Shown here: piece by piece, positions 6,665 to 55,741 of the stretch
How the letters are laid out: each line of letters begins with the position of its first letter
Position numbering within the stretch: the first letter of the stretch is position 1
From: Siphonodentalium dalli
Lineage: Eukaryota > Mollusca > Scaphopoda > Gadilida > Siphonodentaliidae
Direction: 5' to 3'
DNA: 64,000 nt
Assembly: GCA_032622095.1 (NCBI GenBank)
Contig: CP136067.1
Coordinates: forward strand, 96,214,707-96,278,706
Notes under the pieces: generated by a model
Databases searched by the model: none
What the model was told of the DNA's origin: nothing
Seen by the model: the letters and a program-made list of their open reading frames with translations, nothing else
Translations under genes and position numbers: made by a program

Positions 6665-6933
6665 TTACAGACATTCTTTTCACATGTACACCACTTTAAA
6701 AGCTACATTAAATTGAATTTGAATATTCGAATGGACCCATCCGACAACCTATCTGATTTGCGATTCAGTCAGCTAGATAACAGCGATGATCATTTCCGTT
6801 TAATTCAGAATTGACGTTACAATGAAATTCTGGTGGAATTTTACGGATATATGATGTAATGCATTCAATGCACTTTTGGTGTCATGTTGACACAATTTGT
6901 ATCCAAAAAGTATTGATTCATCCCTTCAGATAC

Positions 6934-7687
6934 TTCACATTTATTATTTATTTGCGCTTAATTAAGCGCAAATATGTGTCTCAATTTATTTGCGCTTAAG
7001 CGCAAATACTTACCACGCCCTTACTTCTCTCTGATTGTGAATGATTGAGTCCATCTCATAGTATATTATTATGGGCCCATAGTAATAGCCCCATACAGGC
7101 TCGAAAGTTGAAAAAAAACATATTTCCATATGCATATCAGCATCTCTGTCCCTGGTGTCCGAATAATTGGTACCTCATTCCCAGAGCTCTAGTATATTTT
7201 ATTAAAGGGACGTCTCCTGTACAGATATATACCATTTCCATGGCCATAAAAAGGGAATTAGGGGTTACTTCCCTTATATGGTGTACTTATTGACTTGAAA
7301 TTGGGGGAAAACCCTATTTTCATATTATCAGCATCCCTGTCTCCATCAATTTGTGTCTCCATCCCAGAGATCTAGTATATTTTATAAAAGAGACATACCC
7401 TGCACAGATCTACCATTTCCATGGTCATAAAAGGAATCTAGGGGTTACTGGGGGATTGCTTCCCTCATATGGTGGGCCTATATAGACTTGAGTGATGTGT
7501 TTAGGCCTGTGCCATTTAAAATTAATTCAGGGGGGATCAATGAATATTAATTTTTATTTGCGCTTAAGGTAAATGATTTGCGCTTAAGCGCAAATGATTT
7601 ACGCTTAAGCGTAAATATTTGCGCTTAAGCGAAAATGATAGAGGTTATTTGCGCTTAAGCAAAGCGTAAATGAATAATAAATGTGAA
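6934..7687. mobile_element. Non-autonomous element with GCGCTTAAGCGC subterminal palindromes
   Basis: Ends are inverted repeats TTCACATTTATTATT and AATAATAAATGTGAA. Just inside both ends are clusters of the palindrome TTGCGCTTAAGCGCAA and variants, two at the left and at least five at the right. The body carries a tandem duplication of about 230 bp (about 7075-7300 and 7310-7500), recognised by AGCTCTAGTATATTTTAT and CATTTCCATGG in both halves. A diverged inverted relative lies at 56834-57735 with the same ends, palindromes and duplicated body. Subterminal palindrome clusters are typical of transposase-binding regions, but no superfamily is assigned. Confidence 0.75.
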
Positions 7688-8740: not shown

Positions 8741-8984
8741 TCTTTACGTTGAAACTTGATAATTAATGAGCGTGTGTATATGAGGCGCGTTTATATACTT
8801 GAGTGGAAATCAAATCGGGTTAAACTGGCGGATTTTTACGGACGAAATTTGATGCATAGGGTATCTCGGTATCCGCTGGGCCGATTTCCCGGTATCCGCT
8901 GGGCCGATTTCAACCATTTTTGGGGTGTTGGTGTTTGACCCCACCTGACCTTGACCTTCAAAATGGTCAAAGCCCGGACGAAGT
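8741..8984. repeat. Linker of the GT-rich repeat cluster with a 23-bp duplication
   Basis: CGGTATCCGCTGGGCCGATT occurs twice in tandem at about 8867 and 8890. It is followed by CCTTGACCTTCAAAATGG and GCCCGGACGAAGTCGGGT. The latter two motifs recur in the 16.6-18.0 kb region, so this linker belongs to the same composite repeat. Confidence 0.6.
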
Positions 8985-9494
8985 CGGGTCGCCTTCTAGT
9001 CTATTATATATTTTTGGAAGATCTGTCTGTGTATCTGTCTGTGATGTGTGTGGGGGGGGGGGGGGGGGGGTGTGTGTTCGCGATGAACTCGAAAACGGCC
9101 GACCCGATTTCGATGAAACTTCGTATGTGAGGCTACTATCGGCCGGGAAGTGGCATAGGCATATTAATTTTCAGATCCGAGGTAAACTTTTCACGTGCCG
9201 AGGTCAAATCTGTTTTTACGCCGTTTTGCGCTAATATATTTCAGTTCGGTGCTCACAAATCGATTCGATATAGCGCGAATAATAAATTGCCAGTCATATA
9301 ATTTGCACGGTTAGAATCTGTGGCGCTTCCTCTTTCCAATGATGTATCACACGCCTGTGTACGTTTAACGTTTCTACCTTAATTATCGGGAAGAACGCAG
9401 GACCATGCTTCGCTCATCGAAAAACATTCCGTAAATATAATTACGCCGTCAACAGATCGTGACGTGATCGCGTTTAACTCTTAACCGGCCGATG
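8985..9494 (+). repeat. GT-rich dispersed repeat, copy 2, abutting the giant palindrome
   Basis: Begins in CCTTCTAGTCTATTATATAT, passes an 18-G run (about 9053-9070) and (GT)n, then GTTCGCGATGAACTCGAAAA, and ends TTAACCGGCCGATG exactly where the palindrome begins. An inverted copy at 22290-22762 carries the same terminal CATCGGCCGGTTAA. The two copies therefore bracket the 9.5-22.3 kb interval as inverted repeats. Confidence 0.85.
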
Positions 9495-9977
9495 TCAAAA
9501 CGAAATCTTATAAAGTGCTGTGCATTAACGCACCTCAATCAATGTGCCGTGTCGTAGATACATTCGCCTATTTTATGCATAATGCTATTTTATGGAATAT
9601 TATAATCCCCTTCTCTTTTCATTGAGTTGAACTAATCAACTACACACAGAGAAATTTGGGTTCTCCGGGAAACAAAACTGGTTTCATATACAGTTTGTCC
9701 CAGTATGGGAATAAAACGAAGAACCAAACATACATGTTTTGGTTCTTCACGAATAATCAAAATAACGAACCAAAATGAAGAACCAAATTCAAGAACCAAT
9801 TGTGAGGAAATTTACCTTAATAACAATTGATGTCTAGTGTAAGGCATGAAACATATTTCACAGATTGCATTTGAATAACCACCATTTCCCCAGAGAAAAA
9901 TGAAACAACCTGGATCTTATCATTTTCTAAAAAAAAATTGAGGTCCGAACCCATGTATACATCTTCCCATACTTTAA

Positions 9978-10446
9978 AGGTACTCAATCCGATAAAACTC
10001 CTCTCAATTACTATATCAATGGCTTCGGGGGTCAAAAATATTTGATTCGAGTCGAGGAAGTCACCCATCAAAGCTCAGATTTGTTAGATATCGATTTTAG
10101 AAATCTGTTATTTTTCATTATCGGGAATACTATCTGGCCCAGAACTCAGTCAAAATTGCGTTAAAATTACCACTTGATTTTAGAGTTATCCATCCTTGTC
10201 TGTTTTAATAGATTTGGAGTACACATCCAGAGCAGATTACGGCAGTTATTAGTACTCATCTCGAGTTAATAACAAATTTAAAAAATCAATATCTAATAAC
10301 TCTGAGCTTTGTTTGATGGGTTCATCGACTCGAATCAAATATTTTTTACCCCCAAAGCCAAAGAAATAGTAATATAGGACCCTCTGATCGGATTGTTGTT
10401 GTTGGAATCTGTTGAGATGGGGACCCTCTTTACGGATTGAGTACCT
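9978..10446 (+). mobile_element. MITE-1 (TTAA type), 469 bp
   Basis: Flanked on both sides by TTAA (9974-9977 and 10447-10450). Ends are AGGTACTCAATCCG and CGGATTGAGTACCT. The body is itself partly self-complementary: TTTGATTCGAGTCGAGGAAG near the left faces CTCGACTCGAATCAAA near the right, and AACTCTGAGCTTTG mirrors CAAAGCTCAGATTT. TTAA duplication is characteristic of piggyBac and Kolobok-like elements. It has no coding capacity. Mirror and duplicate copies are at 15133-15601 and 18987-19455. Confidence 0.9.
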
Positions 10447-10965
10447 TTAACCACCTAAACTTGGTATATCCTTTTCTGATCAGCACTACCATCTCTTTAC
10501 TATATCCTCATGAGTGCTTCTGAATACGGGGAGAGGGTCATCAATAAGTTGCATAACTTGTACTCCAATCCCCTGTTGCCACATCACATGTATAAATATA
10601 TCTATTTTGTAATTTAATCCAATATATTCATGGCACAATAAATATGTTACTACTACTACTACTATCAAGTAGAAAACAGACATTATGGATCCACATTGGA
10701 ACCTATCTTGTTTATAATGTTTGTCCTGAGGGGAGAACCAATGTGACCTATTTTGGTTATCTATTTGGTTCCCAGGATAGAACCATGCAGAACATGGAAC
10801 CAAATAGTTCCCCATTTGCTTCACTAAATGGATAATAGGAAACAATTATGAGTACTTGGGGATACAATGCCCCGTGACACTATGTGTAGGTTATAAGCAT
10901 GTTTGGGGTGTCTTTGTTTCTGAAAGTTATATTACTTCGTAAATACGGTATCGGGTATACCGTAA

Positions 10966-11444
10966 AGGTACTCAATCCGATAAAACTCCTCTCAATTACT
11001 ATTTCAATGGCTTCGGGGGTCAAAAATATTTGATTCGAGTCGAGGAAGTCACCCATCAAAGCTCAGATTTGTTAGATATCGATTTTAGAAATCTATTATT
11101 TTTCATTATCGGGAATTCTTTCTGGCCCAGAAGACAGTCAGAATTTCGTTATTATTACCACTTGATTATAGAGTTATCCATCCTTGTCTGTTTCAATAAA
11201 GTTTTGGCGTAAAATCTCGAGCAGGTTACCAAATTGACGGCAGTTATTAGTACTCATCTCGAGCAATTAACAAATTTCAAAAATCAATATCTAATAACTC
11301 TGAGCTTTGTTTGATGGGTTCCTCGACTCGAATCAAATATTTTTTACCCCCAAAGCCAAAGAAATAGTAATATAGGACCCTCTGATCGGATTGTTGTTGT
11401 TGGAATCTGTTGAGATGGGGACCCTCTTTACGGATTGAGTACCT
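10966..11444 (+). mobile_element. MITE-1, 479 bp
   Basis: Same family as the element at 9978. The right flank is TTAA (11445-11448) while the left is GTAA, probably a mutated TTAA. It differs from its neighbour by a longer middle containing GTTTTGGCGTAAAATCTCGA. Copies in the other A units are at 14135-14613 and 19975-20453. Confidence 0.9.
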
Positions 11445-11956
11445 TTAAACTTGATAGCACACGATGTTGGTTCAACGAATAGACCCCGAAATTGTTCTGA
11501 TGTCTGAAGAAAATATCGATATATATTAATACAGTTATTGTTCTATACTTTACCCCGTTTGTGATATGAGCAATATAGTTACCCTCGCCAACAACCAAAC
11601 GACCATATTATATGCATATAACTCGAAACAGGCTATATTGGCATGTGTACATTGGTATTTCAAAGTAATCCTGACTGATTTAGTCTCCTCCGTATCACCT
11701 TAACCCCAAACGCTTGGACATATTGGTCTGTTAGAATATAGGACATTTAAGCTAAGCCTGTTCCCACACAAACATTGAATTGAATCATCGATCAAAATGG
11801 AAAAGAAAATCATTAGGTTTGGTTGGCGATTATCGCAATACGCCAGGGGAACACCGTGTGCGTAACGTACATGTAACTATCACAAGTATAACGTACTCTG
11901 GGGACAACTTATCGCCAATTTCATGCGTAAGATATATATTTAAAACATGAATTCAG

Positions 11957-12223
11957 TTAAATGTTTCTACAGTTATCTACACTGTTCCGGCCAAGTGTAT
12001 TCGCGTTGTGCTCAAAACACATTTTTTCGAAGTGGACGGAACAAATTCAGGACTATTTCGTTGGCAACTACTTCAATAGTTTCTGATTTTGAGTAACGGG
12101 TTTCGCACAGAAATCCCACCAAATGTCACGTAAACGAACGTCGTTTGGAAATGAATGCAGAATTATACCTAATTGAGAGTCACTATACCGGCCACAACCG
12201 AAAACACTGCATTTATTTGCCAT
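11957..12223 (-). pseudogene. Degenerate THAP zinc-finger frame, left arm
   Basis: Minus-strand mirror of 13356-13622. The frame begins MANKCSVFGCGRYSD, continues with HSFPND and WWDF, then meets three in-frame stops before ICSVHFEKMCFE. The C-x4-C ... C-x2-H layout with 50 codons between the second Cys and the CSVH Cys, plus the FP and Trp positions, matches the C2CH THAP DNA-binding domain. THAP domains occur in P-element-type transposases and host proteins derived from them. No transposase catalytic part follows. With three stops this is a relic, or the stops mark an unrecognised intron. Confidence 0.65.
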
Positions 12224-13355
12224 TGTCACGAATGAATTGTAAATACGGGACAATCGGGGCATATATATGGAAAATTAAAACAACATCGTGAACACGCACC
12301 CGAATAGAGTTCACATGTCGGCTCGTGTTTTTATAAGCTTTATTTTTTTCACGAAAGTGTTATCTACCCCGCTCAATCGGCCTTCTATATTTCTTGTCAA
12401 AACAATAACTTTCCAAGCAGCACTTATGACAAATCACAAGTGAAGATAACTCACCGGGCGTTGAAAATTCACCACGTGTACACAATGTTATTGACATGCC
12501 ATGCCCCACAGTAATTCCATTACACTCACGCGCTCGATTCCGCATTTTCCATCGCCACTCATATGACGTCATATAGGTAGACACAATTAACTCCGATTCC
12601 GTGTTTTTAATTAGTTTACTCATTTGACGTCATATGAGGATTTGCGACGGAGATAGCCGACAACCGGTGGGGGTATTATTTATTTATTTCTAGGCTTATT
12701 TATTACGCGATTGTTATGGGACTTGGATCATTGTGATCACAATAGGGTTGGCTTTCCGATAGTGTTTTGTTGTTTCATCAGGATAGCAATTGCTATCCTG
12801 ATGAAACAACAAAACACTATCGGAAAGCCAACCCTATTGTGATCACAATGATCCAAGTCCCATAACAATCGCGTAATAAATAAGCCTAGAAATAAATAAA
12901 TAATACCCCCACCGGTTGTCGGCTATCTCCGTCGCAAATCCTCATATGACGTCAAATGAGTAAACTAATTAAAAACACGGAATAGGAGTTAATTGTGTCT
13001 ACCTATATGACGTCATATGAGTGGCGATGGAAAATGCGGAATCGAGCGCGTGAGTGTAATGGAATTACTGTGGGGCATGGCATGTCAATAACATTGTGTA
13101 CACGTGGTGAATTTTCAACGCCCGGTGAGTTATCTTCACTTGTGATTTGTCATAAGTGCTGCTTGGAAAGTTATTGTTTTGACAAGAAATATAGAAGGCC
13201 GATTGAGCGGGGTAGATAACACTTTCGTGAAAAAAATAAAGCTTATAAAAACACGAGCCGACATGTGAACTCTATTCGGGTGCGTGTTCACGATGTTGTT
13301 TTAATTTTCCATATATATGCCCCGATTGTCCCGTATTTACAATTCATTCGTGACA

Positions 13356-13622
13356 ATGGCAAATAAATGCAGTGTTTTCGGTTGTGGCCGGTATAGTGAC
13401 TCTCAATTAGGTATAATTCTGCATTCATTTCCAAACGACGTTCGTTTACGTGACATTTGGTGGGATTTCTGTGCGAAACCCGTTACTCAAAATCAGAAAC
13501 TATTGAAGTAGTTGCCAACGAAATAGTCCTGAATTTGTTCCGTCCACTTCGAAAAAATGTGTTTTGAGCACAACGCGAATACACTTGGCCGGAACAGTGT
13601 AGATAACTGTAGAAACATTTAA
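13356..13622 (+). pseudogene. Degenerate THAP zinc-finger frame, right arm
   Basis: Met at 13356. The zinc ligands would be the Cys codons at 13368 and 13383, and the CSVH Cys and His at 13536 and 13545, all in one frame interrupted by stops after QKLLK (TAG, TAG, TGA within about 30 bp). The frame ends at TAA 13620-13622. No GT...AG pair neatly removes the three stops. An upstream frame at 12995-13219 on the same strand, Cys-rich near its end (ICHKCCLESYC), may belong to the same lost gene, but I do not recognise it. In the left arm this upstream frame is longer because one base differs. Confidence 0.65.
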
Positions 13623-14134
13623 CTGAATTCATGTTTTAAATATATATCTTACGCATGAAATTGGCGATAAGTTGTCCCCAGAGTACGTTATACTTGTGAT
13701 AGTTACATGTACGTTACGCACACGGTGTTCCCCTGGCGTATTGCGATAATCGCCAACCAAACCTAATGATTTTCTTTTCCATTTTGATCGATGATTCAAT
13801 TCAATGTTTGTGTGGGAACAGGCTTAGCTTAAATGTCCTATATTCTAACAGACCAATATGTCCAAGCGTTTGGGGTTAAGGTGATACGGAGGAGACTAAA
13901 TCAGTCAGGATTACTTTGAAATACCAATGTACACATGCCAATATAGCCTGTTTCGAGTTATATGCATATAATATGGTCGTTTGGTTGTTGGCGAGGGTAA
14001 CTATATTGCTCATATCACAAACGGGGTAAAGTATAGAACAATAACTGTATTAATATATATCGATATTTTCTTCAGACATCAGAACAATTTCGGGGTCTAT
14101 TCGTTGAACCAACATCGTGTGCTATCAAGTTTAA

Positions 14135-14613
14135 AGGTACTCAATCCGTAAAGAGGGTCCCCATCTCAACAGATTCCAACAACAACAATCCGATCAGAGG
14201 GTCCTATATTACTATTTCTTTGGCTTTGGGGGTAAAAAATATTTGATTCGAGTCGAGGAACCCATCAAACAAAGCTCAGAGTTATTAGATATTGATTTTT
14301 GAAATTTGTTAATTGCTCGAGATGAGTACTAATAACTGCCGTCAATTTGGTAACCTGCTCGAGATTTTACGCCAAAACTTTATTGAAACAGACAAGGATG
14401 GATAACTCTATAATCAAGTGGTAATAATAACGAAATTCTGACTGTCTTCTGGGCCAGAAAGAATTCCCGATAATGAAAAATAATAGATTTCTAAAATCGA
14501 TATCTAACAAATCTGAGCTTTGATGGGTGACTTCCTCGACTCGAATCAAATATTTTTGACCCCCGAAGCCATTGAAATAGTAATTGAGAGGAGTTTTATC
14601 GGATTGAGTACCT
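14135..14613 (-). mobile_element. MITE-1 in unit A copy 2
   Basis: Mirror image of the 10966-11444 element through the palindrome centre, with the same ends and the same GTAA/TTAA flank asymmetry. It was therefore copied with the palindrome arm and not inserted independently. Confidence 0.9.
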
Positions 14614-15132
14614 TTACGGTATACCCGATACCGTATTTACGAAGTAATATAACTTTCAGAAACAAAGACACCCCAAACATGCTTATAACCTACACATAGT
14701 GTCACGGGGCATTGTATCCCCAAGTACTCATAATTGTTTCCTATTATCCATTTAGTGAAGCAAATGGGGAACTATTTGGTTCCATGTTCTGCATGGTTCT
14801 ATCCTGGGAACCAAATAGATAACCAAAATAGGTCACATTGGTTCTCCCCTCAGGACAAACATTATAAACAAGATAGGTTCCAATGTGGATCCATAATGTC
14901 TGTTTTCTACTTGATAGTAGTAGTAGTAGTAACATATTTATTGTGCCATGAATATATTGGATTAAATTACAAAATAGATATATTTATACATGTGATGTGG
15001 CAACAGGGGATTGGAGTACAAGTTATGCAACTTATTGATGACCCTCTCCCCGTATTCAGAAGCACTCATGAGGATATAGTAAAGAGATGGTAGTGCTGAT
15101 CAGAAAAGGATATACCAAGTTTAGGTGGTTAA

Positions 15133-15601
15133 AGGTACTCAATCCGTAAAGAGGGTCCCCATCTCAACAGATTCCAACAACAACAATCCGATCAGAGGGT
15201 CCTATATTACTATTTCTTTGGCTTTGGGGGTAAAAAATATTTGATTCGAGTCGATGAACCCATCAAACAAAGCTCAGAGTTATTAGATATTGATTTTTGA
15301 AATTTGTTATTAACTCGAGATGAGTACTAATAACTGCCGTAATCTGCTCTGGATGTGTACTCCAAATCTATTAAAACAGACAAGGATGGATAACTCTAAA
15401 ATCAAGTGGTAATTTTAACGCAATTTTGACTGAGTTCTGGGCCAGATAGTATTCCCGATAATGAAAAATAACAGATTTCTAAAATCGATATCTAACAAAT
15501 CTGAGCTTTGATGGGTGACTTCCTCGACTCGAATCAAATATTTTTGACCCCCGAAGCCATTGATATAGTAATTGAGAGGAGTTTTATCGGATTGAGTACC
15601 T
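15133..15601 (-). mobile_element. MITE-1 in unit A copy 2
   Basis: Mirror image of the 9978-10446 element, TTAA on both sides. It was copied as part of the arm. Confidence 0.9.
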
Positions 15602-16084
15602 TTAAAGTATGGGAAGATGTATACATGGGTTCGGACCTCAATTTTTTTTTAGAAAAGGATAAGATCCAGGTTGTTTCATTTTTCTCTGGGGAAATGGTGG
15701 TTATTCAAATGCAATCTGTGAAATATGTTTCATGCCTTACACTAGACATCAATTGTTATTAAGGTAAATTTCCTCACAATTGGTTCTTGAATTTGGTTCT
15801 TCATTTTGGTTCGTTATTTTGATTATTCGTGAAGAACCAAAACATGTATGTTTGGTTCTTCGTTTTATTCCCATACTGGGACAAACTGTATATGAAACCA
15901 GTTTTGTTTCCCGGAGAACCCAAATTTCTCTGTGTGTAGTTGATTAGTTCAACTCAATGAAAAGAGAAGGGGATTATAATATTCCATAAAATAGCATTAT
16001 GCATAAAATAGGCGAATGTATCTACGACACGGCACATTGATTGAGGTGCGTTAATGCACAGCACTTTATAAGATTTCGTTTTGA

Positions 16085-18503
16085 TGACATAATATTTCTT
16101 ATAACGAAATAATAATTGAAATAACGAAATATTATAGCGTGCATAGTGAGACTAGTGTGTATAGTTAATTGTGATTTTGGTGACTTGGTGCAGGCCTAGT
16201 GCCGATTGCTTACACTATTATACACTGACAGGTCTCCAGGACGAAAATTGACACAACCCCAATAATATTTAGCCTATAACCTATAAGCCTATATATTGAA
16301 CATATTTCAGGTGCGGTAATTTAGTTTCTCTCGGGATCAGTTGATTTGTAAGTGTGAAAATCGACTCTTTCATAAGCTGTTCAAACTGATTTTTCGTTAA
16401 TCACGACCACAATTGACCCCCACCACCCAAAGACATATCTTTGGGTGGCGAGGGTCTCTTGTACCAGCCACCTGCGCTCACGACGTGACATTATAGCCTA
16501 AACATTTCGGCAGGACAACGCACATAACTTAATAAAAAATATATTATTTCCATATAACGAAATATGAGAAAAAGAGTTCAGTTATATATATATACTAGAA
16601 GGTGACCCGACTTCGTCCGGGCTTTGACCTTGAATTGTCCATTTTGAAGGTCAAGGTCAAGTGGGGTCCAAAACACTGCCCGGACAAAAGTACCCGACAA
16701 ACGTGCCCGTCGAAATCCATCCGGTTTTACCCGATTTGACCTTGAATTGATCATTTTGAAGGTCAAGGTCAGGTCGGGGTCACGACTCGACCCGCCCAAA
16801 ACACTCAGTGGACAAAAGTAACCCCACGTATCAAATTTCGTCGAAATCCCATCAAAATTGGCGATATGACCTTGAATTGACCCGATTTCAAGGTCAAGGT
16901 CACGTCGCACGGGCAAATTAATAGGCCTATGCCACTTCCCGGCCGAAAATATCCCCACATACCAAGTTTCATCGAAATCGGGTCGGCCGTTTTCGAGTTT
17001 ATCGCGAACACACACACACACACACCACACACAGACAGATCTTCCAAAATATATAATAGATATATATATATACTAGAAGGTGACTCGACTTCGTCCGGGC
17101 TATTCAAAAACCAAATTTCAAGTCGATAGCTCCACCCGTTTCCGAGATCTGGTCTGCGCATGCGCGAAGCTGGCGTCGCACGGGCTCGGCGACCCGATAA
17201 AATTCGTATCCGGGGCAAGATACATTCACATACCAAATTTCAAGTCGATAGCTCCACCCGTTTCCGAGATATATATATTGCCCAATGTGATTTGCGGATA
17301 CCTTGGGCAATATATATATCTCGGAAACGGGTGGAGCTATCGACTTGAAATTTGGTATGTGAATGTATCTTGCCCCGGATACGAATTTTATCGGGTCGCC
17401 GAGCCCGTGCGACGCCAGCTTCGCGCATGCGCAGACCAGATCTCGGAAACGGGTGGAGCTATCGACTTGAAATTTGGTTTTTGAATAGCCCGGACAAAGT
17501 CGAGTCACCTTCTAGTATATATATATATCTATTATATATTTTGGAAGATCTGTCTGTGTGTGGTGTGTGTGTGTGTGTGTTCGCGATAAACTCGAAAACG
17601 GCCGACCCGATTTCGATGAAACTTGGTATGTGGGGATATTTTCGGCCGGGAAGTGGCATAGGCCTATTAATTTGCCCGTGCGACGTGACCTTGACCTTGA
17701 AATCGGGTCAATTCAAGGTCATATCGCCAATTTTGATGGGATTTCGACGAAATTTGATACGTGGGGTTACTTTTGTCCACTGAGTGTTTTGGGCGGGTCG
17801 AGTCGTGACCCCGACCTGACCTTGACCTTCAAAATGATCAATTCAAGGTCAAATCGGGTAAAACCGGATGGATTTCGACGGGCACGTTTGTCGGGTACTT
17901 TTGTCCGGGCAGTGTTTTGGACCCCACTTGACCTTGACCTTCAAAATGGACAATTCAAGGTCAAAGCCCGGACGAAGTCGGGTCACCTTCTAGTATATAT
18001 ATATAACTGAACTCTTTTTCTCATATTTCGTTATATGGAAATAATATATTTTTTATTAAGTTATGTGCGTTGTCCTGCCGAAATGTTTAGGCTATAATGT
18101 CACGTCGTGAGCGCAGGTGGCTGGTACAAGAGACCCTCGCCACCCAAAGATATGTCTTTGGGTGGTGGGGGTCAATTGTGGTCGTGATTAACGAAAAATC
18201 AGTTTGAACAGCTTATGAAAGAGTCGATTTTCACACTTACAAATCAACTGATCCCGAGAGAAACTAAATTACCGCACCTGAAATATGTTCAATATATAGG
18301 CTTATAGGTTATAGGCTAAATATTATTGGGGTTGTGTCAATTTTCGTCCTGGAGACCTGTCAGTGTATAATAGTGTAAGCAATCGGCACTAGGCCTGCAC
18401 CAAGTCACCAAAATCACAATTAACTATACACACTAGTCTCACTATGCACGCTATAATATTTCGTTATTTCAATTATTATTTCGTTATAAGAAATATTATG
18501 TCA
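16085..18503. repeat. Unit B-B' inverted pair inside palindrome 2
   Basis: B (16085-17285) and B' (17303-18503) are the parts of palindrome 2 not shared with palindrome 1. From outside in: an AT-rich segment with ATAACGAAATA-type repeats, a hairpin at 16424-16452 (CCACCCAAAGACATATCTTTGGGTGG core), then the composite GT/CCTTGACCTTGAA repeat. Apparent open frames of up to 150 codons in B and B' are mirror images made of repeat sequence and are not genes. Confidence 0.9.
16595..17994. repeat. ACTAGAAGGTGACCCGACTT composite repeat, two inverted copies
   Basis: Each half starts ACTAGAAGGTGACCCGACTT CGTCCGGGC, carries three blocks of TGACCTTGAATTG/CAAGGTCAAGGTCA inverted pairs spaced about 120 bp, then CACTTCCCGGCCGAAAATAT, CGTTTTCGAGTTTATCGCGA, an (AC)n tract and AGATCTTCCAAAATATATAA. 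A second start (about 17072) leads to AAATTTCAAGTCGATAGCTC CACCCGTTTCCGAGAT. The block order equals that of the repeats at 8.2-9.5 kb and 22.0-23.2 kb, so all belong to one dispersed family with modular middles. Confidence 0.75.
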
Positions 18504-18986
18504 TCAAAACGAAATCTTATAAAGTGCTGTGCATTAACGCACCTCAATCAATGTGCCGTGTCGTAGATACATTCGCCTATTTTATGCATAATGCTATTTT
18601 ATGGAATATTATAATCCCCTTCTCTTTTCATTGAGTTGAACTAATCAACTACACACAGAGAAATTTGGGTTCTCCGGGAAACAAAACTGGTTTCATATAC
18701 AGTTTGTCCCAGTATGGGAATAAAACGAAGAACCAAACATACATGTTTTGGTTCTTCACGAATAATCAAAATAACGAACCAAAATGAAGAACCAAATTCA
18801 AGAACCAATTGTGAGGAAATTTACCTTAATAACAATTGATGTCTAGTGTAAGGCATGAAACATATTTCACAGATTGCATTTGAATAACCACCATTTCCCC
18901 AGAGAAAAATGAAACAACCTGGATCTTATCCTTTTCTAAAAAAAAATTGAGGTCCGAACCCATGTATACATCTTCCCATACTTTAA

Positions 18987-19455
18987 AGGTACTCAATCCG
19001 ATAAAACTCCTCTCAATTACTATATCAATGGCTTCGGGGGTCAAAAATATTTGATTCGAGTCGAGGAAGTCACCCATCAAAGCTCAGATTTGTTAGATAT
19101 CGATTTTAGAAATCTGTTATTTTTCATTATCGGGAATACTATCTGGCCCAGAACTCAGTCAAAATTGCGTTAAAATTACCACTTGATTTTAGAGTTATCC
19201 ATCCTTGTCTGTTTTAATAGATTTGGAGTACACATCCAGAGCAGATTACGGCAGTTATTAGTACTCATCTCGAGTTAATAACAAATTTAAAAAATCAATA
19301 TCTAATAACTCTGAGCTTTGTTTGATGGGTTCATCGACTCGAATCAAATATTTTTTACCCCCAAAGCCAAAGAAATAGTAATATAGGACCCTCTGATCGG
19401 ATTGTTGTTGTTGGAATCTGTTGAGATGGGGACCCTCTTTACGGATTGAGTACCT
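18987..19455 (+). mobile_element. MITE-1 in unit A copy 3
   Basis: Counterpart of the 9978-10446 element at the +9009 offset, TTAA on both sides. Confidence 0.9.
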
Positions 19456-19974
19456 TTAACCACCTAAACTTGGTATATCCTTTTCTGATCAGCACTACCA
19501 TCTCTTTACTATATCCTCATGAGTGCTTCTGAATACGGGGAGAGGGTCATCAATAAGTTGCATAACTTGTACTCCAATCCCCTGTTGCCACATCACATGT
19601 ATAAATATATCTATTTTGTAATTTAATCCAATATATTCATGGCACAATAAATATGTTACTACTACTACTACTATCAAGTAGAAAACAGACATTATGGATC
19701 CACATTGGAACCTATCTTGTTTATAATGTTTGTCCTGAGGGGAGAACCAATGTGACCTATTTTGGTTATCTATTTGGTTCCCAGGATAGAACCATGCAGA
19801 ACATGGAACCAAATAGTTCCCCATTTGCTTCACTAAATGGATAATAGGAAACAATTATGAGTACTTGGGGATACAATGCCCCGTGACACTATGTGTAGGT
19901 TATAAGCATGTTTGGGGTGTCTTTGTTTCTGAAAGTTATATTACTTCGTAAATACGGTATCGGGTATACCGTAA

Positions 19975-20453
19975 AGGTACTCAATCCGATAAAACTCCTC
20001 TCAATTACTATTTCAATGGCTTCGGGGGTCAAAAATATTTGATTCGAGTCGAGGAAGTCACCCATCAAAGCTCAGATTTGTTAGATATCGATTTTAGAAA
20101 TCTATTATTTTTCATTATCGGGAATTCTTTCTGGCCCAGAAGACAGTCAGAATTTCGTTATTATTACCACTTGATTATAGAGTTATCCATCCTTGTCTGT
20201 TTCAATAAAGTTTTGGCGTAAAATCTCGAGCAGGTTACCAAATTGACGGCAGTTATTAGTACTCATCTCGAGCAATTAACAAATTTCAAAAATCAATATC
20301 TAATAACTCTGAGCTTTGTTTGATGGGTTCCTCGACTCGAATCAAATATTTTTTACCCCCAAAGCCAAAGAAATAGTAATATAGGACCCTCTGATCGGAT
20401 TGTTGTTGTTGGAATCTGTTGAGACGGGGACCCTCTTTACGGATTGAGTACCT
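19975..20453 (+). mobile_element. MITE-1 in unit A copy 3
   Basis: Counterpart of the 10966-11444 element at the +9009 offset. Carries the C at 20425 that distinguishes copy 3. Confidence 0.9.
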
Positions 20454-21525
20454 TTAAACTTGATAGCACACGATGTTGGTTCAACGAATAGACCCCGAAA
20501 TTGTTCTGATGTCTGAAGAAAATATCGATATATATTAATACAGTTATTGTTCTATACTTTACCCCGTTTGTGATATGAGCAATATAGTTACCCTCGCCAA
20601 CAACCAAACGACCATATTATATGCATATAACTCGAAACAGGCTATATTGGCATGTGTACATTGGTATTTCAAAGTAATCCTGACTGATTTAGTCTCCTCC
20701 GTATCACCTTAACCCCAAACGCTTGGACATATTGGTCTGTTAGAATATAGGACATTTAAGCTAAGCCTGTTCCCACACAAACATTGAATTGAATCATCGA
20801 TCAAAATGGAAAAGAAAATCATTAGGTTTGGTTGGCGATTATCGCAATACGCCAGGGGAACACCGTGTGCGTAACGTACATGTAACTATCACAAGTATAA
20901 CGTACTCTGGGGACAACTTATCGCCAATTTCATGCGTAAGATATATATTTAAAACATGAATTCAGTTAAATGTTTCTACAGTTATCTGCATGGACTAGAT
21001 CCCATCCATCTTTCCGACTAAATGCGGGTCATAACTTATGTCTTAATTTTACAATTGTCTTATGACATCTATAATTATACCACCAGTCTGGCACCAGACT
21101 TAAAGTTAAGACCATCTTAAGTTAAGGCCTTGTTCGTGAAACGAGCTTATAGATGAACGTTTGAACGTAAGGCCAATTTTAAGGATCACAAATATGCCCT
21201 TATCTGGTTTAGAACCAACTCTGTTACCACTGGACGGCATATATTGGCCTAATGTACCATGTACGTAGCCAGCTGAGCCACCGATGCCCCCTGGGGCAAA
21301 ATCCGCAACAAAATAGCCAGATTCAGCAGAGGATATCGGAGATAAACCATGCATGCAAACCCATAAAAGTTAAAAACTCTATGCCTGACACAGTACATCA
21401 GTTGGACATTTCAGACCCACATTTGAATTGTAATATTTAATGTCGTCCTGATAGTTTGATGTCAACCAATATGTTATGTGTTCGTTTAGGACGGGAAACG
21501 GATACAAAACATTACCTACAGGAAA

Positions 21526-21555
21526 GGAAACGGATATATATATATATCCGTTTCC
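21526..21555. repeat. 30-bp perfect hairpin with (TA)n core
   Basis: GGAAACGGATATA pairs with TATATCCGTTTCC around a TA core. A further GGGAAACGGATAC lies 33 bp upstream. It may be a collapsed duplication. Confidence 0.8.
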
Positions 21556-21679
21556 CACTTCATGCACTTGTTATCAGCGAATTATTATTTTATAATTTAA
21601 TGTTTTTCGCATAGTAACATATGTATTCAATATAGGCCGATCACTCAGTGAGGGGTCCGGGAAGATGTAACCTATTTTT

Positions 21680-21729
21680 GGCGTCACGTGGGGGTCGCGT
21701 GCCGTGATTCGTGACGTCATTGTTCCAAA
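21680..21729 (+). promoter_or_regulatory. Promoter-like CpG patch: E-box, CRE, YY1-like site
   Basis: Within 55 bp lie CACGTG (21685-21690, an E-box), TGACGTCA (21712-21719, a full CRE palindrome) and AAAATGGCGGC (21727-21737, resembling the YY1 site often found at the start of TATA-less genes). The patch is CpG-rich against AT-rich surroundings. The combination is typical of housekeeping promoters. No TATA box is present. This is inference from motifs only. Confidence 0.35.
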
Positions 21730-21797
21730 ATGGCGGCGCCCAGTAGCATGAGCCGTAGACGCGTAGACAAGTTTTCGGTTGGCAATCACCATGTCAG
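21730..21797 (+). CDS. Candidate first coding exon, unknown product
   Basis: ATG at 21730 lies inside the YY1-like site and opens a 22-codon frame starting MAAPSSMSRRR and continuing VDKFSVGNHHV. It runs into CAG|GTGAAT, a good splice donor with the intron starting at 21798. Unspliced, the frame would stop at once (TGA at 21799), so the donor position is what makes a first exon plausible. No downstream exon is recognised in the following repeats, and I do not recognise the peptide. Alternatively this is a chance ATG in a CpG-rich patch. Confidence 0.25.
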
Positions 21798-21844
21798 GTG
21801 AATCTTGACTCCTTCAGCGGATGGAACAAGAAGCCGGTGCAATT

Positions 21845-22045
21845 TAAATATATTCCTGGATCCTATTTCTTTGGAAATTAATTACATTTGATTCAAAATG
21901 TCGCATGCAGACATTTCGTATAGCGAAATTACAGCCCCAAACGCATAATTTTCCGAAAATCGGTTGCCTTGTCAACCGTTCGCAAATTGGTGGTATCTAC
22001 CCAAAATGTTTGGAAGATTTACAAACTACTGATGATCACCGATAT
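21845..22045 (+). repeat. ~200-bp segment duplicated at 23470-23650
   Basis: Shared landmarks in the same order are ATATTCCTGGAT, TTGATTCAAAATGTCGCA, TATAGCGAA, TTACAGCCCC and GGTGGTATCTACCCAAAAT. The copies are diverged by substitutions and small indels. The downstream copy is followed by a second duplicated segment (23285-23365 and 23655-23745, sharing AATGGTCTGACCCAACATT). Confidence 0.75.
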
Positions 22046-22056
22046 ATATATATGAC

Positions 22057-22289
22057 TAGAAGGTGACCCGACTTCGTCCGGGCTATTCAACAACCAAATT
22101 TCAAGTCGATAGCTGCACCCGTTTCCGAGATCTGGTCTGCGCATGCGCGAAGCTGGCGTCGCACGGGCTCGGCGACCCGATAAAATTCGTATACGGGGCA
22201 AGATAAGTCGATAGCTCCACCCGTTTCCGAGATATATATATTGCCCAATGTCATTTGCGGATACCTCGGCCGGTGATGAGTTAACGCGA
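22057..22289 (+). repeat. Truncated ACTAGAAGGTGACCCGACTT repeat
   Basis: Matches 17072-17302 in the same orientation: TGACCCGACTTCGTCCGGGC, AAATTTCAAGTCGATAGCTG, CTGCGCATGCGCGAAGCTGG. It then jumps, with an internal deletion, to GAGATATATATATTGCCCAA and TTTGCGGATACC. It reads straight through the sequence that forms the loop of palindrome 2, which makes it informative about how that palindrome arose. Confidence 0.8.
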
Positions 22290-30812: not shown

Positions 30813-31691
30813 ATGATGGTTTGCAAAGATGTCCTAGCCAAACATTAGTGTTTAGAATCTTGTTGTTCATCAGGTCAACACATCGCCTGAATGTCACAAT
30901 CGTGACAAATGTGAACGAGCGACGCAATGAAGCGTAAACAACCCCGCATTATATGTTTTTATAAACGATTGCGACACAAATAAATGACTGCGAAATGGGG
31001 CGGCATAAAATCAGGGAATATATATTCCCTGCATAAAATGCACGGTAGCGGGATAATGTCGCAAGAGCTATACTCGTCCTTGACCTCGATAAATGGTATA
31101 CTCGTATAGGGCGCGCATCAATAATCTCAAATCGACTCCATTCCACCCGCACGTGCAATTTGACTTATATATCAGGATGTTCCACCCACTTTGGTGTTCT
31201 AGAAACCGCCCGAAAAAGACCCGTTAATTAGTTGAATACAACGTGACTGCAAATTCTGAGGTGAAGGTCGAGTATAGCTCTTGCTACATTACCTCTCTAC
31301 CAAAATGCACGACCATTTTTGATACTCAACAGGGCCTGTTTTATTTGGGGACACCTCCCGATGACCAAAGGTCATCGCCGATTGCCGAATGCAGAAGCCG
31401 GGAAGAGTATGAGAGGGGTGGCCCATCTCGTTGGGGCGGTCCGGGGGGTCTCCCCAGGGAATTTTTTTGAAATTTCAATGCTCTGAGAGTGATCTTGGGC
31501 ATATCTGAAGGATGATTTTCATTTTTTAACCAAAGAGAATTTTATACTTTCAGTAGCTATTAATATGACCAGAGTCACTTAAGCTAGAAAACAAAATTCA
31601 TTTAATACATGAACTCAATTTATATTTATACACAAAAGAAAAGACACAATGAACCAACATATTTATTTCAACTTACAAGATAACATTGTTT
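30813..31691. other. Non-coding, contains a 32-bp inverted repeat pair
   Basis: GCAAGAGCTATACTCGTCC (about 31062-31080) faces GGTCGAGTATAGCTCTTGC (about 31266-31284) across about 190 bp, with extension on both sides, so a small foldback or MITE spans roughly 31054-31293. A palindrome CGATGACCAAAGGTCATCG lies at about 31359-31377. The 75-codon Gly/Arg-rich frame at 31243-31470 overlaps this inverted repeat, and I do not support it as a gene. Confidence 0.5.
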
Positions 31692-31695
31692 TTAA

Positions 31696-32164
31696 AGGTA
31701 CTCAATCCGATAAAACTCCTCTCAATTACTATATCAATGGCTTCGGGGGTCAAAAATATTTGATTCGAGTCGAGGAAGTCACCCATCAAAGCTCAGATTT
31801 GTTAGATATCGATTTTAGAAATCTATTATTTTTCATTATCGGGATTACTATCTGGCCCAGAACTCAGTCAAAATTGCGTTAAAATTACCACTTGATTTTA
31901 GAGTTATCCATCCTTGTCTGTTTGAATAGATTTGGAGTACACATCCAGAGCAGATTACGGCAGTTATTAGTACTCATCTCGAGTTAATAACAAATTTCAA
32001 AAATCAATATCTAATAACTCTGAGCTTTGTTTGATGGGTTCATCGACTCGAATCAAATATTTGTTACCCCCAAAGCCAAAGAAATAGTAATATAGGACCC
32101 TCTGATCGGATTGTTGTTGTTGGAATCTGTTGAGATGGGGACCCTTTTTACGGATTGAGTACAT
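31696..32164 (+). mobile_element. MITE-1, independent copy
   Basis: Flanked at the left by TTAA (31692-31695). The left end is AGGTACTCAATCCG. The right end reads CGGATTGAGTAC then diverges (ATTCAAGA), so the right flank is lost. Very similar to the 469-bp version in unit A. It abuts the truncated HINE-like element that follows and probably removed or replaced that element's 5' end. Confidence 0.88.
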
Positions 32165-32667
32165 TCAAGACAATACAATCCTACAATCCCCTAATTTCTG
32201 GGAACGAGTAATTTTGGGGTCATTCGGCCAAAAAACATGGCCGCTGGCAGCCATCTTAGATTTTACTCTTTGTATGACTAAATCCTTTAGCACGGGCTAC
32301 AGGTCGTACCTTTAGTCTGATCATCATAAAATTTGTCATGGCTGTTTAAATTGACATGTAGATCGGAACGAGTCATTTTGGGGTTATTCGGCATTAAAAC
32401 ATGGCTGCCAGCGGCCATTTTGGATTCTACTCTTTGCATGACTAAAGCTATCAAATGTTTTTGAATTGTTGGAAAACATAGCCGCCAGCAACCATCTTAG
32501 ATTTTACTTTTATATACATGTATATATATATATATATATATATCTTTTCATGTTGATAAACTAGTATTAGACATTCAACTTTCCACATTCCTAATCACTC
32601 CATCGACAGTAACACATTAAATTATTTCCTTTCCAAGTTGAGCTACAGTGTCATTGACACTTTCATT
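32165..32667 (+). mobile_element. HINE-like element 1, 5'-truncated
   Basis: Contains two ~190-bp core units (GGGAACGAGTAATTTTGGGG, CATGGCCGCTGGCAGCCATC, AGCACGGGCTACAGGTCGTA) and the family's 3' end: AAGTTGAGCTA then the hairpin AGTGTCATTGACACT and TTCATT. The 5' end (TAGCTCAACTT) is missing because MITE-1 abuts. A (TA)n tract lies at 32510-32545. Confidence 0.7.
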
Positions 32668-35600
32668 AAGAAAAGATTGATCAAACAGGCGCAGGTGACC
32701 ATATCATACCTTTTTGGAAAGTTTGAAGACTTATATAGTGACGAAGCGAAGCGGAATTTAAATTTTCATCCCAGGTTGGATATTATTAAAAAGGAGGTCA
32801 CCATTGCTAATCACTGTTTATAATATTTCCATCAAATGTCACAGAAACAAAACATAAAATGAAAACTCTGCTTTGCATTATCACTAGATATATGCTCAAA
32901 CGTTCCAACAAGACATGAAGTATTATTCTACGGTTTGTTAATATTGAGTAATCTTGTCTTGAAAATTAACACTGAATTCCCCATTTCAATGTTGCCACTT
33001 TACTTCCTTAACGGTGTTCACACCTATTCATGGCTGATTTTTTTTCTTGCATATCTATTAGATGCTTTTGTATAATCTAACATGATTGAGCCAAAGAAGT
33101 TTCGTATGGAAAAGAATATTGAAGATATAAAAATATTTTTCATATATTTTCGAGGATTTAGAGTGTCATAAAATTAAGGGGGAGATCGAGTGACCAGTTT
33201 TCAATGGGGATTTCAATGCAAACCTCCACAGCAAAAGTTATATCTAAAGCAGTTGTCTGGGAAATAAAGTAACCACATCAATAAACAGATATAGCATTTA
33301 CCTGGCGGCTGGGCTAAGTAAATTTAAATTTTTTGTTTTAAATTCATTTTTAGCTCAACTTTACTTTGTAAAGTGTGAGCTATTGCCATGGCTTGGTATC
33401 CGTCGTCCGTGTGTGCGTGTGTATGTGTGTCTGTGTGTGATGCGTCGACAATTTCCTTTAGCACGGGCTACAGTTCGTACCTTTGGTCCAATTATTATGA
33501 AATTTGTCATGGATGTTGACATTGACATGTAGATGGGAACGAGTCATTTTGGGGTCATTCGGGAAAAAACATGTGCGCCAGTAGCCATCTTTGATTTCAA
33601 AATTCAATCCATTAGCACGGGCTACAGGCCGTACTGTTCATCTTATTGTCATGAAATTTGTCAAGGATGTTAATATTGACATGTAGATGGGAACGAGTAA
33701 TTTTGGGGTCAATCGGCCAAAAAACATGGCCGCCAGCAGCCATCTTTGATTTTACTCTTTGTATGACTAAATCATTTAGCACGGGCTACAGGTCGTACCT
33801 TTAGTCTGATCATCATGAAATTTGTCATGACTGTTGAAATTGGAATGTAGATGGGAACGAGTCATTTTGGGGTCATTCGGACAAAAAACATGGCCGCCAA
33901 CGGCCATCTTGGATTTCAAAATTTAATCCATTAGCACAGGCCACAGGTCGTACTGTTCGTCTGATCATCATGAAATTTGTCATGGATGTTAATATTGACA
34001 TGTAGATGGGAACGAGTAATTTTGGGGTCAATCGGCCAAAAAACATGGCCGCCAGCAGCCATCTTGGATTTTACTCTTTGTATGACTAAATTCTTTAGCA
34101 CGGGCTGCAGGTCGTACCTTTAGTCTGATCGTCATAAAATTTGTCATGGCTGTTGAAATTGGAATGTAGATGGGAACTAGTCATTTTGGGGGTCATTCGG
34201 AAAAAAAACATGGCCGCCAGCGGCCATCTTGGATTTCAAAATTCAATCCATTAGCACGGGCTACAGGTCGTACTGTTCATCTGATCATCAAGACATATGT
34301 CGTGGATGTTAATATTAACTTGTAGATGTGAACGAGTAATTTTGGGGTCATTCGGCCAAAAAACATGGCCGCTGGCAGCCATCTTAGATTTTACTCTTTG
34401 TATGACTAAATCCTTTAGCACGGGCTACAGGTCGTACCTTTAGTCTGATCATCATAAAATTTGTCATGGCTGTTTAAATTGACATGTAGATCGGAACGAG
34501 TCATTTTGGGGTTATTCGGCATTAAAACATGGCTGCCAGCGGCCATTTTGGATTCTACTCTTTGCATGACTAAAGCTATCAAATGTTTTTGAATTGTTGG
34601 AAAACATAGCCGCCAGCAACCATCTTAGATTTTACTTTTATATACATGTATATATATATCTTTTCATGTTGATAAACTAGTATTAGACATTCAACTTTCC
34701 ACATTCCTAATCACTCCATCGACAGTAACACATTAAATTATTTCCTTTCCAAGTTGAGCTACAGTGTCATTGACACTTTCATTAAGAAAAGATTGATCAA
34801 ACATTACAAGGCGCAGGTGACCATATCATACCTTTTTGGAAAGTTTGAAGACTTATATAGTGACGAAGCGAAGCGGAATTTAAATTTTCATCCCAGGTTG
34901 GATATTATTAAAAAGGAGGTCACCATTGCTAATCACTGTTTATAATATTTCCATCAAATGTCACAGAAACAAAACATAAAATGAAAACTCTGCTTTGCAT
35001 TATCACTAGATATATGCTCAAACATTCCAACAAGACATGAAGTATTATTCTACGGTTTGTTAATATTGAGTAATCTTGTCTTGAAAATTAACACTGAATT
35101 CCCCATTTCAATGTTGCCACTTTACCTCCTTAACGGTGTTCACACCTATTCATGGCTGATTTTTTTCTTGCATATCTATTAGATGCTTTTGTATAATCTA
35201 ACATGATTGAGCCAAAGAAGTTATGTATGGAAAAGAATATTGAAGATATAAAAATATTTTTCATATATTTTCGAGGATTTAGAGTGTCATAACATTAAGG
35301 GGGAGATCGAGTGACCAGTTTTGAATGGGGATTTCAATGCAAACCTCCACAGCAAAAGTTATATCTGAAGCAGTTGTCTGGGAAATAAAGTAACCATATC
35401 AATAAACAGATATAGCATTTACCTGGCGGCTGGGCTAAGTACATTTAAATTTTTTGTTTTAAATTCATTTTTAGCTCAACTTTACTTTGTAAAGTGTGAG
35501 CTATTGCCATGGCTTGGTATCCGTCGTCCGTGTGTGCGTGTGTATGTGTGCCTGTGTGTGATGCGTCAACAATTTCCTTTAGCACGGGCTACAGTTCGTA

Positions 35601-36210
35601 CCTTTGGTCCAATTATTATGAAATTTGTCATGGATGTTGACATTGACATGTAGATGGGAACGAGTCATTTTGGGGTCATTCGTAAAAAAAAACATGGCCG
35701 CCAGCAGCCATCTTTGATTTCAAAATTCAATCCAATAGCACGGGATACAGGCCGTACTGTTCATCTTATTGTCATGAAATTTGTCAAGGATGTTAATATT
35801 GACATGTAGATGGGAATGAGTAATTTTGGGGTCAATCGGCCAAAAAACATGGCCGCCAGCAGCCATCTTTGATTTTACTCTTTGTATGACTAAATCCTTT
35901 AGCACGGGCTACAGGTCGTACCTTTAGTCTGATCATCATGAAATTTGTCATGACTGTTTGGGGTCATTCGGACAAAAAACATGGCCGCCAACGGCCATCT
36001 TGGATTTCAAAATTTAATCCATTAGCACAGGCCACAGGTCGTACTGTTCGTCTGATCATCATGAAATTTGTCATGGATGTTAATATTGACATGTAGATGA
36101 GAACGAGTAATTTTGGGGTCATTCGGCCAAAAAACATGGTCGCCAGCAGCCATCTTGGATTTTACTCTTTGTATGACTAAATTCTTTAGCACGGGCTGCA
36201 GGTCGTACCT
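32200..36210 (+). repeat. ~2.12-kb tandem duplication of HINE 3' end, spacer and next HINE
   Basis: About 32200-34327 and 34328-36210 are the same sequence at an offset of 2116-2128 bp. The copied unit spans the 3' part of one HINE-like element, the 690-bp spacer (TTAAGAAAAGATTGATCAAA onward) and the 5' part of the next. Differences are few: a (TA)n length change of 16 bp, a CATTACAAGG-type 6-bp indel near 34804 and scattered substitutions. Unequal recombination between the ~190-bp units explains it simply. Confidence 0.85.
33349..34783 (+). mobile_element. HINE-like element 2, complete
   Basis: The 5' end TTTAGCTCAACTTTAC pairs with GTAAAGTGTGAGC just inside, followed by CTATTGCCATGGCTTGG, a GT-rich tract and about six ~190-bp core units. 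The 3' end is AAGTTGAGCTA (the inverse of the 5' end), then hairpin AGTGTCATTGACACT and TTCATT. A short 5' inverted repeat, a subterminal 3' counterpart, internal tandem repeats and a 3' hairpin are the hallmarks of Helentron-associated non-autonomous elements (HINE/DINE, and bivalve 'pearl' elements). It has no coding capacity, so it would need a Rep/Helicase from elsewhere. Confidence 0.7.
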
Positions 36211-38943: not shown

Positions 38944-39525
38944 AGGGGTACTGTACGCCAAATGTTGTTGTTGGTTTCTATAGTCTCCGAGTCGGAGAAT
39001 AAGGTAACAATTTTTTCATTATTTGAAAGTCTGTTGAGTACGAAGTAGTGTTACGGATGACAAATTTACCGGAATGCAAAAATACAAATTGTCGTTGTCG
39101 AGTAATTTTTGTACAGTTTTCAACCAAATGAATCAAATAAAAGTTATATTATAGGCATACTAGTCCCATATAATCATTTAAGTTATTGTATCGTCGCTAG
39201 TCAGTGAGTGGCTTGATGTTCTCCCCGTATCATCATAATATTTTAAGCGATCGTGTGTGCGATCGGTTTAACAATCCAGTAACCCTCAATTACTTTGTTT
39301 GATTACGAAAATTCGTAATTTAATTGACGCCATTTTATGGCTCCAGTCATAAATTCAATTTATATCAAATTATTAACTTTTAAATTATTAAATTTTAAGA
39401 TAGCCTATTAACCTGAGCGTTTACAGAATACATCTTCGACTCAAATTACTTATGTTTCTATATATTATCGATATTAGATCGTTGTTGTCACCGGAAATTT
39501 AATGAAAATGGCGTACAGTACCCCT
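38944..39525 (-). mobile_element. MITE-2, 582 bp
   Basis: TTAA on both sides (38940-38943 and 39526-39529). Ends AGGGGTACTGTACGCCA and TGGCGTACAGTACCCCT. The body runs in the opposite orientation to the 26204 copy: GTTGTTGTTGGTTTCTATAG at the left, CACCGGAAATTTAATGAAAA at the right. It carries a ~30-bp insertion-like difference (GCGATCGTGTGTGCGATCG near 39247-39265), which is itself palindromic. Confidence 0.9.
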
Positions 39526-39529
39526 TTAA

Positions 39530-39871
39530 TCTTTATTACCATCAGGTAGGTAGAATTATAAACATGAGTTTCTAAATATACACATCATTGTTATTTGGGG
39601 AGATTTTTATTGGAGCGGATGTCAAGACTTGAAATAATTTAGGAGTTCTTCTTTTTACAAGCTGCCGTTATGAGAGGCTCAACATTCTCAGTCTGTCAAT
39701 TCATTCCATCTGATGATTGAAAACAAATTCACATGCTGTGTATATGGTCATAGTTCAAAAAAATTAATTTCATTCATATCTATTCCAAAAAAATGTTTTC
39801 ACTGATGAATTGACCAGAGGGTGAATTTAGTGATGCTAGTCAACTATACGGTTCAAATGAATTATGGACTA
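39530..39871. other. Spacer with a 25-bp match to the 61-kb nested palindrome
   Basis: Around 39812-39836 reads CAGAGGGTGAATTTAGTGATGCTA-type sequence, the same word that is repeated four times in alternating orientation at 61228-61422. Otherwise nothing was recognised. Confidence 0.5.
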
Positions 39872-42376: not shown

Positions 42377-42594
42377 TAACTTGAAATAACTTTTTGTGAA
42401 TGAAAATAAATAAAAACCAACACATTAATATCTCCATTATTCTCATTATCTCATGCTATGATGACTGATAGAATGGTTTGGTAAGAAGTATTACACAATC
42501 TGAACACCATGCATGGGTGCAATTATTTTCAGGAAAAATGTTATCACCGGGTTTGTAACCGAACTAATTCAATTTGTGTTTCAGAATATCTTAA

Positions 42595-55737: not shown

Positions 55738-55741
55738 TTAA

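Follow-up and report, generated by a model that had tools for sequence, protein, structure and literature searches.

Organization of the locus

On contig 7 of the genome of the scaphopod Siphonodentalium dalli (assembly GCA_032622095.1, contig CP136067.1) lie two very large palindromes that interlock by sharing one arm. They were analyzed within a window of 64 kb (C7:96214707-96278706, forward strand), by which we mean the whole stretch of DNA studied; it is rich in repeats, A+T-rich and free of ambiguous bases. A sequence-only reading had described the unit order as A-T-T'-A'-B-B'-A, with one centre between 12789 and 12790 lacking any spacer and another at 17294 within a 17-nt loop, and an exact register broken by few substitutions. 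Comparison of the arms bears out the order and both centres, and puts the substitutions at three per palindrome. The components are collected in Table 1, where B is written b.

The two arms of palindrome 1 (P1) meet without spacer, such that paired positions sum to 25579, and in palindrome 2 (P2) they sum to 34588. The three differences in P1, out of 3295 pairs, are at 9922/15657, 10280/15299 and 12595/12984; those of P2, out of 3685, are at 14163/20425, 15299/19289 and 17092/17496. Neither palindrome contains an indel. Outside 9494/16085 the mirror match ends abruptly, and 79 of the next 100 positions are mismatched. On informal judgement the length and identity of the arms are far beyond chance. 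Segment A is present three times, with the middle copy inverted. Between the direct copies A1 and A3 there are 2 differences in 2484 sites, and there are three variable sites among all three.

We scanned 280 kb (114 kb of contig 7, 90 kb of contig 4 and 76 kb around the Kolobok-like elements described below) for inverted pairs of at least 600 bp at 90% identity or better. This returned P1, P2, one 1488-bp pair (90.9%) and one 646-bp repeat that lies both within A and around 55 kb. In this small sample P1 and P2 are the only pairs with no spacer or a short one.

Table 1. Components of the palindromic locus and Helitron-like ends, in window coordinates
Feature	Position	Strand	Evidence or remark
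L, left half of Helitron-like repeat, left flank of insertion	9000-9494	+	97.8% identical to contig 4, don 6756-7249
Insertion A-T-T'-A'-b'-loop, 7808 bp (from paralogue comparison)	9495-17302		Contig-4 paralogue lacks it
Palindrome 1, 2 x 3295-bp arms	9495-16084		3 mismatches, 0 indels
A copy 1 (A1), 2-bp TC overlap with L	9495-11978	+	Sequence comparison
Added nucleotide A at A/T joint	11979-11979	+	Matches neither R nor transposon; mirrored at 13600
T, Kolobok-like transposon end piece, 810 bp	11980-12789	+	TTAA target, AGGA.. ends, THAP remnant
T', mirror of T, 1 difference	12790-13599	-	Arm alignment
A copy 2 (A2), inverted	13601-16084	-	Sequence comparison
Palindrome 2, 2 x 3685-bp arms, 17-nt loop	13601-20987		3 mismatches, 0 indels
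b', inverted b	16085-17285	-	Mirrors b
P2 loop, 17 nt	17286-17302		Minus strand GGTATCCGCAAATCACA, identical on contig 4
b, native: remainder of Helitron-like repeat and sequence beyond	17303-18503	+	Joined to A and R on contig 4
A copy 3 (A3), native	18504-20987	+	Joined to R at contig 4 don 11701/11702
R, native right flank	20988-22205	+	Within 4600-bp, 99.0% match to contig 4
Helitron-like 3' ends (hairpin and CTAG/T)	8973-9000, 17489-17516, 17967-17994	+	Pattern search
Helitron-like 3' ends (hairpin and CTAG/T)	16594-16621, 17072-17099, 22055-22082	-	Pattern search

An unrearranged copy on contig 4

The assembly searched comprises 2,226,750,531 bases in nine contigs. Among the candidates in it that were scored for a 601-bp probe taken from A (40 of 1803), four match over the full length: the three copies in the window and a single site on contig 4. 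The stretch of contig 4 that we examined, 257843001-257883000 (L001-L004), is numbered here as don, the contig position minus 257843000. It has, in order, L at don 6756-7249, a stretch of 22 nt, b beginning at don 7272, A at 9218-11701 and immediately R. Since contig 4 thus reads L-b-A-R without an insertion, we take L-b-A-R to be the native order on contig 7 also, and 9495-17302 to be a 7808-bp insertion within it. The gap between L and b is about 22 nt, becoming 24 if the shared TC is assigned to A, or 18 where b is taken to start at the BLAST edge, 7268. The contig-4 version of b carries an extra 716 bp inside it, and A differs between the contigs by 8 fixed differences in 2484 (0.32%). L is also followed by the start of b in a minus-strand copy within the window at 22.0-22.8 kb; the adjacency was noted in this copy before contig 4 was examined, and contig 4 agreed. 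An ancestral order L-b-A-T-R, with a native T, was considered and dropped, as A passes directly into R on contig 4.

The two loci lie in an interchromosomal duplication of about 50 kb, window 9000-60912 corresponding to don 6756-54956 (C4:257849756-257897956). On the left it is bounded by the 5' end of the Helitron-like repeat, where L starts, and its right edge falls inside a 60-bp tandem array. The pieces of at least 600 bp retained at 93% or better have identities of 93.1-99.7%; identity is 99.72% across the last 11 kb at the right edge and 99.9% across the last 1.9 kb. A 254-bp palindrome (95%) adjoins this edge at 61198-61451. The insertion is probably younger than the duplication, because 2 of 2484 sites separate A1 from A3, against the 8 that are fixed between the contigs.

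Junctions and substitutions

At the left junction the sequence runs GGCCGATG, TC, AAAACG, where TC is a 2-bp overlap between L and A, and relative to contig 4 about 22 nt are absent between L and b. The A/T joint reads TTATCT, one extra A, then CACTG. The added base occurs in both arms of P1, so that the joining of A to T preceded the mirroring. At the centre of P1 the native sequence GCAATCCTTTAA has become GCAATTGC. A hairpin at this point would need a loop of only 2 nt, and no inverted repeat there leaves room for one of at least 3 nt. For this reason P1 is probably not a plain snap-back, and end-to-end fusion, strand switching or replication of a sealed end would fit better. The turn of P2 is of another kind. 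Here the native sequence GCGGATACCTCGGTCGG gives GCGGATACCTTGGGC in the product; CCCAA faces native TCGGT at a separation of 17 nt with three of five positions able to pair, and in the product the latter has become TTGGG.

When polarised against contig 4 or other copies, the derived substitutions are at 9922 in A1, 20425 in A3, 17496 in native b and 12984 in T'. Each copy has thus far acquired 0-2 derived substitutions per 2.5 kb, and indels are absent. The remaining site, 10280/15299/19289, is A in A1 and A3 and C in A2 and contig 4; among related repeat matches in the sequence examined it is C in 10 of 12, and A1 and A3 themselves are the two exceptions. This may reflect one gene conversion between the direct copies A1 and A3. 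Gene conversion had been offered as a reason for the likeness of the arms generally; it is not needed for that.

The transposon fragment at the centre of palindrome 1

The 810-bp segment T occurs at least 41 times in the genome: besides the two occurrences in the window, 39 sites match it at 97-99% identity (40 of 1932 candidates scored). We inspected nine copies, in eight stretches of which two adjoin; two tandem pairs have common flanks. In all nine, T extends beyond both of its window ends. Upstream there is common sequence ending in GTCGGTAGC in eight of the nine (it is altered in the L011 copy), and downstream all nine have TCCTTTAA, after which flanks are alike only inside the two tandem pairs. 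T begins within a parent element and stops 4 nt short of its terminus. That element is 2.06-2.08 kb long in four of seven oriented loci, and longer in the other three. Its ends are AGGAATATGATCCTGA on the left and AGGATTGCTATCCTGA on the right, with TTAA at the right end of all nine copies and at the left end in six of seven oriented loci (the exception is L005).

Kolobok transposons are described as having a TTAA target, AGG.. ends and a THAP domain (PMC6004289), and all three are found in the parent of T, unlike T itself, which is only a fragment. Judged against the Kolobok motif AGGRR, the left terminus AGGAA conforms and the right terminus AGGAT departs at the last R. A THAP remnant is recognized in one copy, L012 (PF05485, 25.7 bits against a cut-off of 23.9), with a second piece at 19.5 bits, under the cut-off. 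No open reading frame (ORF) longer than 91 amino acids was present in the one parent-element copy examined, and no transposase catalytic domain was seen, though no search was aimed at one. The parent of T fits a Kolobok-like transposon by these sequence features, with the right-hand AGGAT as the exception.

Five copies were aligned with T, including the top scorer of the listed matches (40 of 1932 candidates scored). The best of them has 8 mismatches and 1 gap, as against the single mismatch between T and T', and no recent donor was seen among the five. A 28-mer spanning the centre of P1 occurs nowhere else in the 2.23-Gb assembly with up to 2 mismatches, nor did a gapped search with exact 12-mers find another place in the assembly where two Kolobok ends face within 30 nt. 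As the P1 centre and the facing ends are found only at this locus, the T-T' unit is not mobile. Elsewhere in the genome Kolobok-like elements occur as direct pairs, 7.2 kb apart at L007 2959 and L008 150, and 2.6 kb apart at L009 2502 and 5100; having similar right flanks, these are probably local tandem duplications.

Other repeats and coding content of the window

The 3' end of a Helitron has a hairpin about 10 nt before CTRR, and adjoins a T nucleotide. The pattern CCCGGACGAAGTCGGGTC..CTTCTAGT, allowing up to 3 mismatches, is found at six places in the window and at none in 100 shuffles; there was no exact match in the viral_contigs or genome_contigs sets. The repeat comprising L and b has such a 3' hairpin, and appears on this basis to be Helitron-like. 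The 3' end at 9000 abuts the 5' end of another element, CTAG being followed directly by TCTATTATAT.

A repeat of about 480 bp is present at 9973-10450, 10963-11448, 31691-32168 and 55254-55741, and two of these copies lie in A. It has inverted ends AAAGGTACTCAATCCG, TTAA flanks and copies at 98-99% on all nine contigs, and is probably a recently active miniature inverted-repeat transposable element. Large arrays of a 164/319-bp tandem unit (containing CATGGCCGCC and CATCTTGGATT) occupy 33454-48228, with a layout that differs between contigs 4 and 7. Ten ORFs of the window gave no Pfam family above cut-off, the tandem-repeat ORF at 60360-61052 having weak matches below it, and Rfam gave no match at gathering score in the window.

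The origin of the palindromes

We propose that a single recent break in a Helitron-like repeat, repaired by fold-back synthesis, left this locus as its scar, and we put the probability of this at about 0.68. Comparison with contig 4 shows that the break fell between L and b, where the 22 or so nucleotides are missing. The right-hand end would then have folded back at the weak inverted repeat CCCAA/TCGGT with its 17-nt spacing, and been extended by a polymerase copying b and A for 3.7 kb, so generating P2. The new end was next joined to the 810-bp Kolobok-like fragment with one added nucleotide, as the sequence shows, and the joined end would have been mirrored 4 nt inside the transposon terminus to create P1, whether identical ends fused, synthesis switched strands or a sealed end was replicated. 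The mirrored strand would finally have run back through T and A to be sealed to L at the TC overlap. The insertion is a mutation product, and we assign no function to it.

Several features are those of a fold-back insertion. An inverted copy lies beside the break, as b'-A' mirrors the adjoining b-A; the distal closure has little homology, namely the 2 bp of TC at L/A; and an intact pre-event sequence exists, provided by the contig-4 paralogue and not by an allele. The sequence-only reading had suggested a recent double snap-back. In outline this stands, given the closeness of A1 and A3 compared with the divergence between contigs and the snap-back-like centre of P2 when set against native sequence. 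It is incomplete for P1, where the mirror point lies in the foreign Kolobok-like fragment and a hairpin would have the 2-nt loop.

A number of observations weigh against our proposal. The structure is known from assembled sequence alone, and the native order comes from a paralogue rather than from an allele at the contig-7 site. The fold-back insertions reported in yeast are mostly 5-34 bp, not kilobases (PMC11724301). The repeat at which P2 would have folded is poor, with three pairs out of five, and P1 is probably no simple hairpin snap-back. Moreover site 10280 is unlike a plain chain of copying from A3 to A2 to A1, and requires a later conversion or a second hit.

Could the arrangement be an artefact of the library or assembly, due to reads that fold back or are chimeric, or to an incorrect path in the repeat graph, the chromosome having only L-b-A-R or something simpler? 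Fold-back reads are put at about 0.55-0.6% of Oxford Nanopore genomic reads (PMC12870357) and artificial palindromes are described from whole-genome amplification (PMC6218980), and we have judged the locus from the assembled sequence. Yet a plain fold-back read retraces the same flank on both sides, which is not what is found, for copy 1 of A continues into L and copy 2 into b. Nor would we expect of an artefact a foreign transposon fragment with a 1-nt joint insertion mirrored in both arms, two further junctions that are not mirrors (L/A and A/T), or private substitutions in single copies with no indels. PacBio HiFi reads are reported to be virtually free of fold-backs (PMC12870357), which would count further against an artefact if this assembly was built from them. 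We regard an artefact as unlikely. An inverted triplication is rather unlikely too. By origin-dependent inverted-repeat amplification (ODIRA), or as a duplication with inverted triplication (DUP-TRP/INV-DUP), a hairpin-capped or dumbbell intermediate of b-A would have re-integrated and the outer pieces been lost later. Three copies of A of which the second is inverted, together with turns close to short inverted repeats, are reminiscent of ODIRA products, and secondary erosion of the arms is described for these (PMC10766183). However, it predicts that both turns are at local short inverted repeats and that the flanks are in order, whereas one turn lies in the foreign transposon DNA of T, and L joins A without b. 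The outer b is absent, and its edge lies some 22 nt away from the other turn. R natively follows A3, so that no right-hand deletion is needed. Our early reading of an inverted triplication with two deletions became unnecessary.

The transposon could have had a more active role. Excision of a Kolobok element at a TTAA between L and b might have made the break, after which an end sealed as a TTAA hairpin would have been captured and replicated into P1; a 12-bp central loss at AT repeats would then yield GCAATTGC. The nucleotides lost between L and b do contain TTAA on contig 4, T ends 4 nt from the element terminus, the closest of the five aligned copies has 8 mismatches and a gap yet T and T' differ at one site, and the ends of piggyBac are reported to form 4-nt TTAA hairpins (PMC7351741). 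Against this, TTAA occurs in 13.7% of 22-nt windows here, and the site on contig 4 is without a Kolobok. Hairpin ends are known from piggyBac, and we have seen none reported for Kolobok. The donor may be unassembled or have been missed (40 of 1932 candidates scored). Searching the genome with exact 12-mers gave no second pair of facing ends within 30 nt, with or without TTAA between them, so that any capture of sealed ends has left no further trace of this kind; because of this we have lowered our estimate somewhat, to the point where we consider excision improbable. Insertion of a mobile element with giant inverted repeats, i.e. T-T' or A-T-T'-A' as a fold-back transposon, we reject as having almost no likelihood. 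Such an element would have palindromic ends and T does have many genomic copies, but the T-T' centre is confined to this one locus, and T continues natively past both ends in the nine copies inspected. Furthermore the 601-bp A probe has just one other full-length place (40 of 1803 candidates scored), and by eye the junction sequences reveal no target-site duplication at the edges of the insertion.

Relationship to known rearrangements

In yeast, fold-back is described at short imperfect inverted repeats whose mismatches become corrected (PMC10622511), and repaired breaks are reported to contain local fold-back insertions closed by 0-5 bp of microhomology, as well as distant double-inverted insertions (PMC11724301). 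The locus shares with the latter study the inverted break-adjacent copy with its loop, the closure by microhomology and an inverted pair of distant origin. It differs in scale, 3.7 kb and 3.3 kb against the small local insertions and distant ones with medians of 50 or 150 bp according to mutant. Both kinds are combined here in one insertion, and the second mirror contains the product of the first fold-back. With fold-back priming and filling in by Pol delta (PMC10622511) it has in common a centre at a short imperfect repeat that has been corrected, from TCGGT to TTGGG; the yeast events described there are at chromosome ends with dicentric intermediates, whereas this one is interstitial and closed.

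Inverted triplications (ODIRA, PMC10766183; small triplications, PMC13334657; DUP-TRP/INV-DUP) likewise have three copies with the middle inverted. Here, unlike those described, there is foreign sequence at one turn and the outer b is absent, and the small triplications have medians of 148, 160 and 148 bp compared with 2.5-3.7 kb. Human fold-back inverted duplications (PMC3907307) resemble the locus in folding at inverted microhomology (2-8 bp at 13 junctions in that report), but their spacers are 766-70466 bp where ours are 17 and 0. Among the reports listed in our literature searches we met none that describes so large a palindrome centred on a transposon end, which is no proof that there is none. 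On the reading proposed here, the locus extends known fold-back insertions and inverted triplications to a variant measured in kilobases.

Large palindromes without a spacer should be short-lived. Here a young palindrome is found together with an unrearranged copy, 0.3% away in A, and in consequence every junction of a kilobase-scale fold-back repair can be read to the base within a chromosome-scale assembly. The locus bridges the fold-back insertions of yeast, at tens of bases, and the larger inverted triplications, and it shows a transposon end at the turning point. If an end sealed as a hairpin were indeed the origin of the 6.6-kb P1, then Kolobok transposases would seal ends as TTAA hairpins like those of piggyBac, and hairpin-ended transposons could seed giant palindromes in the germline.

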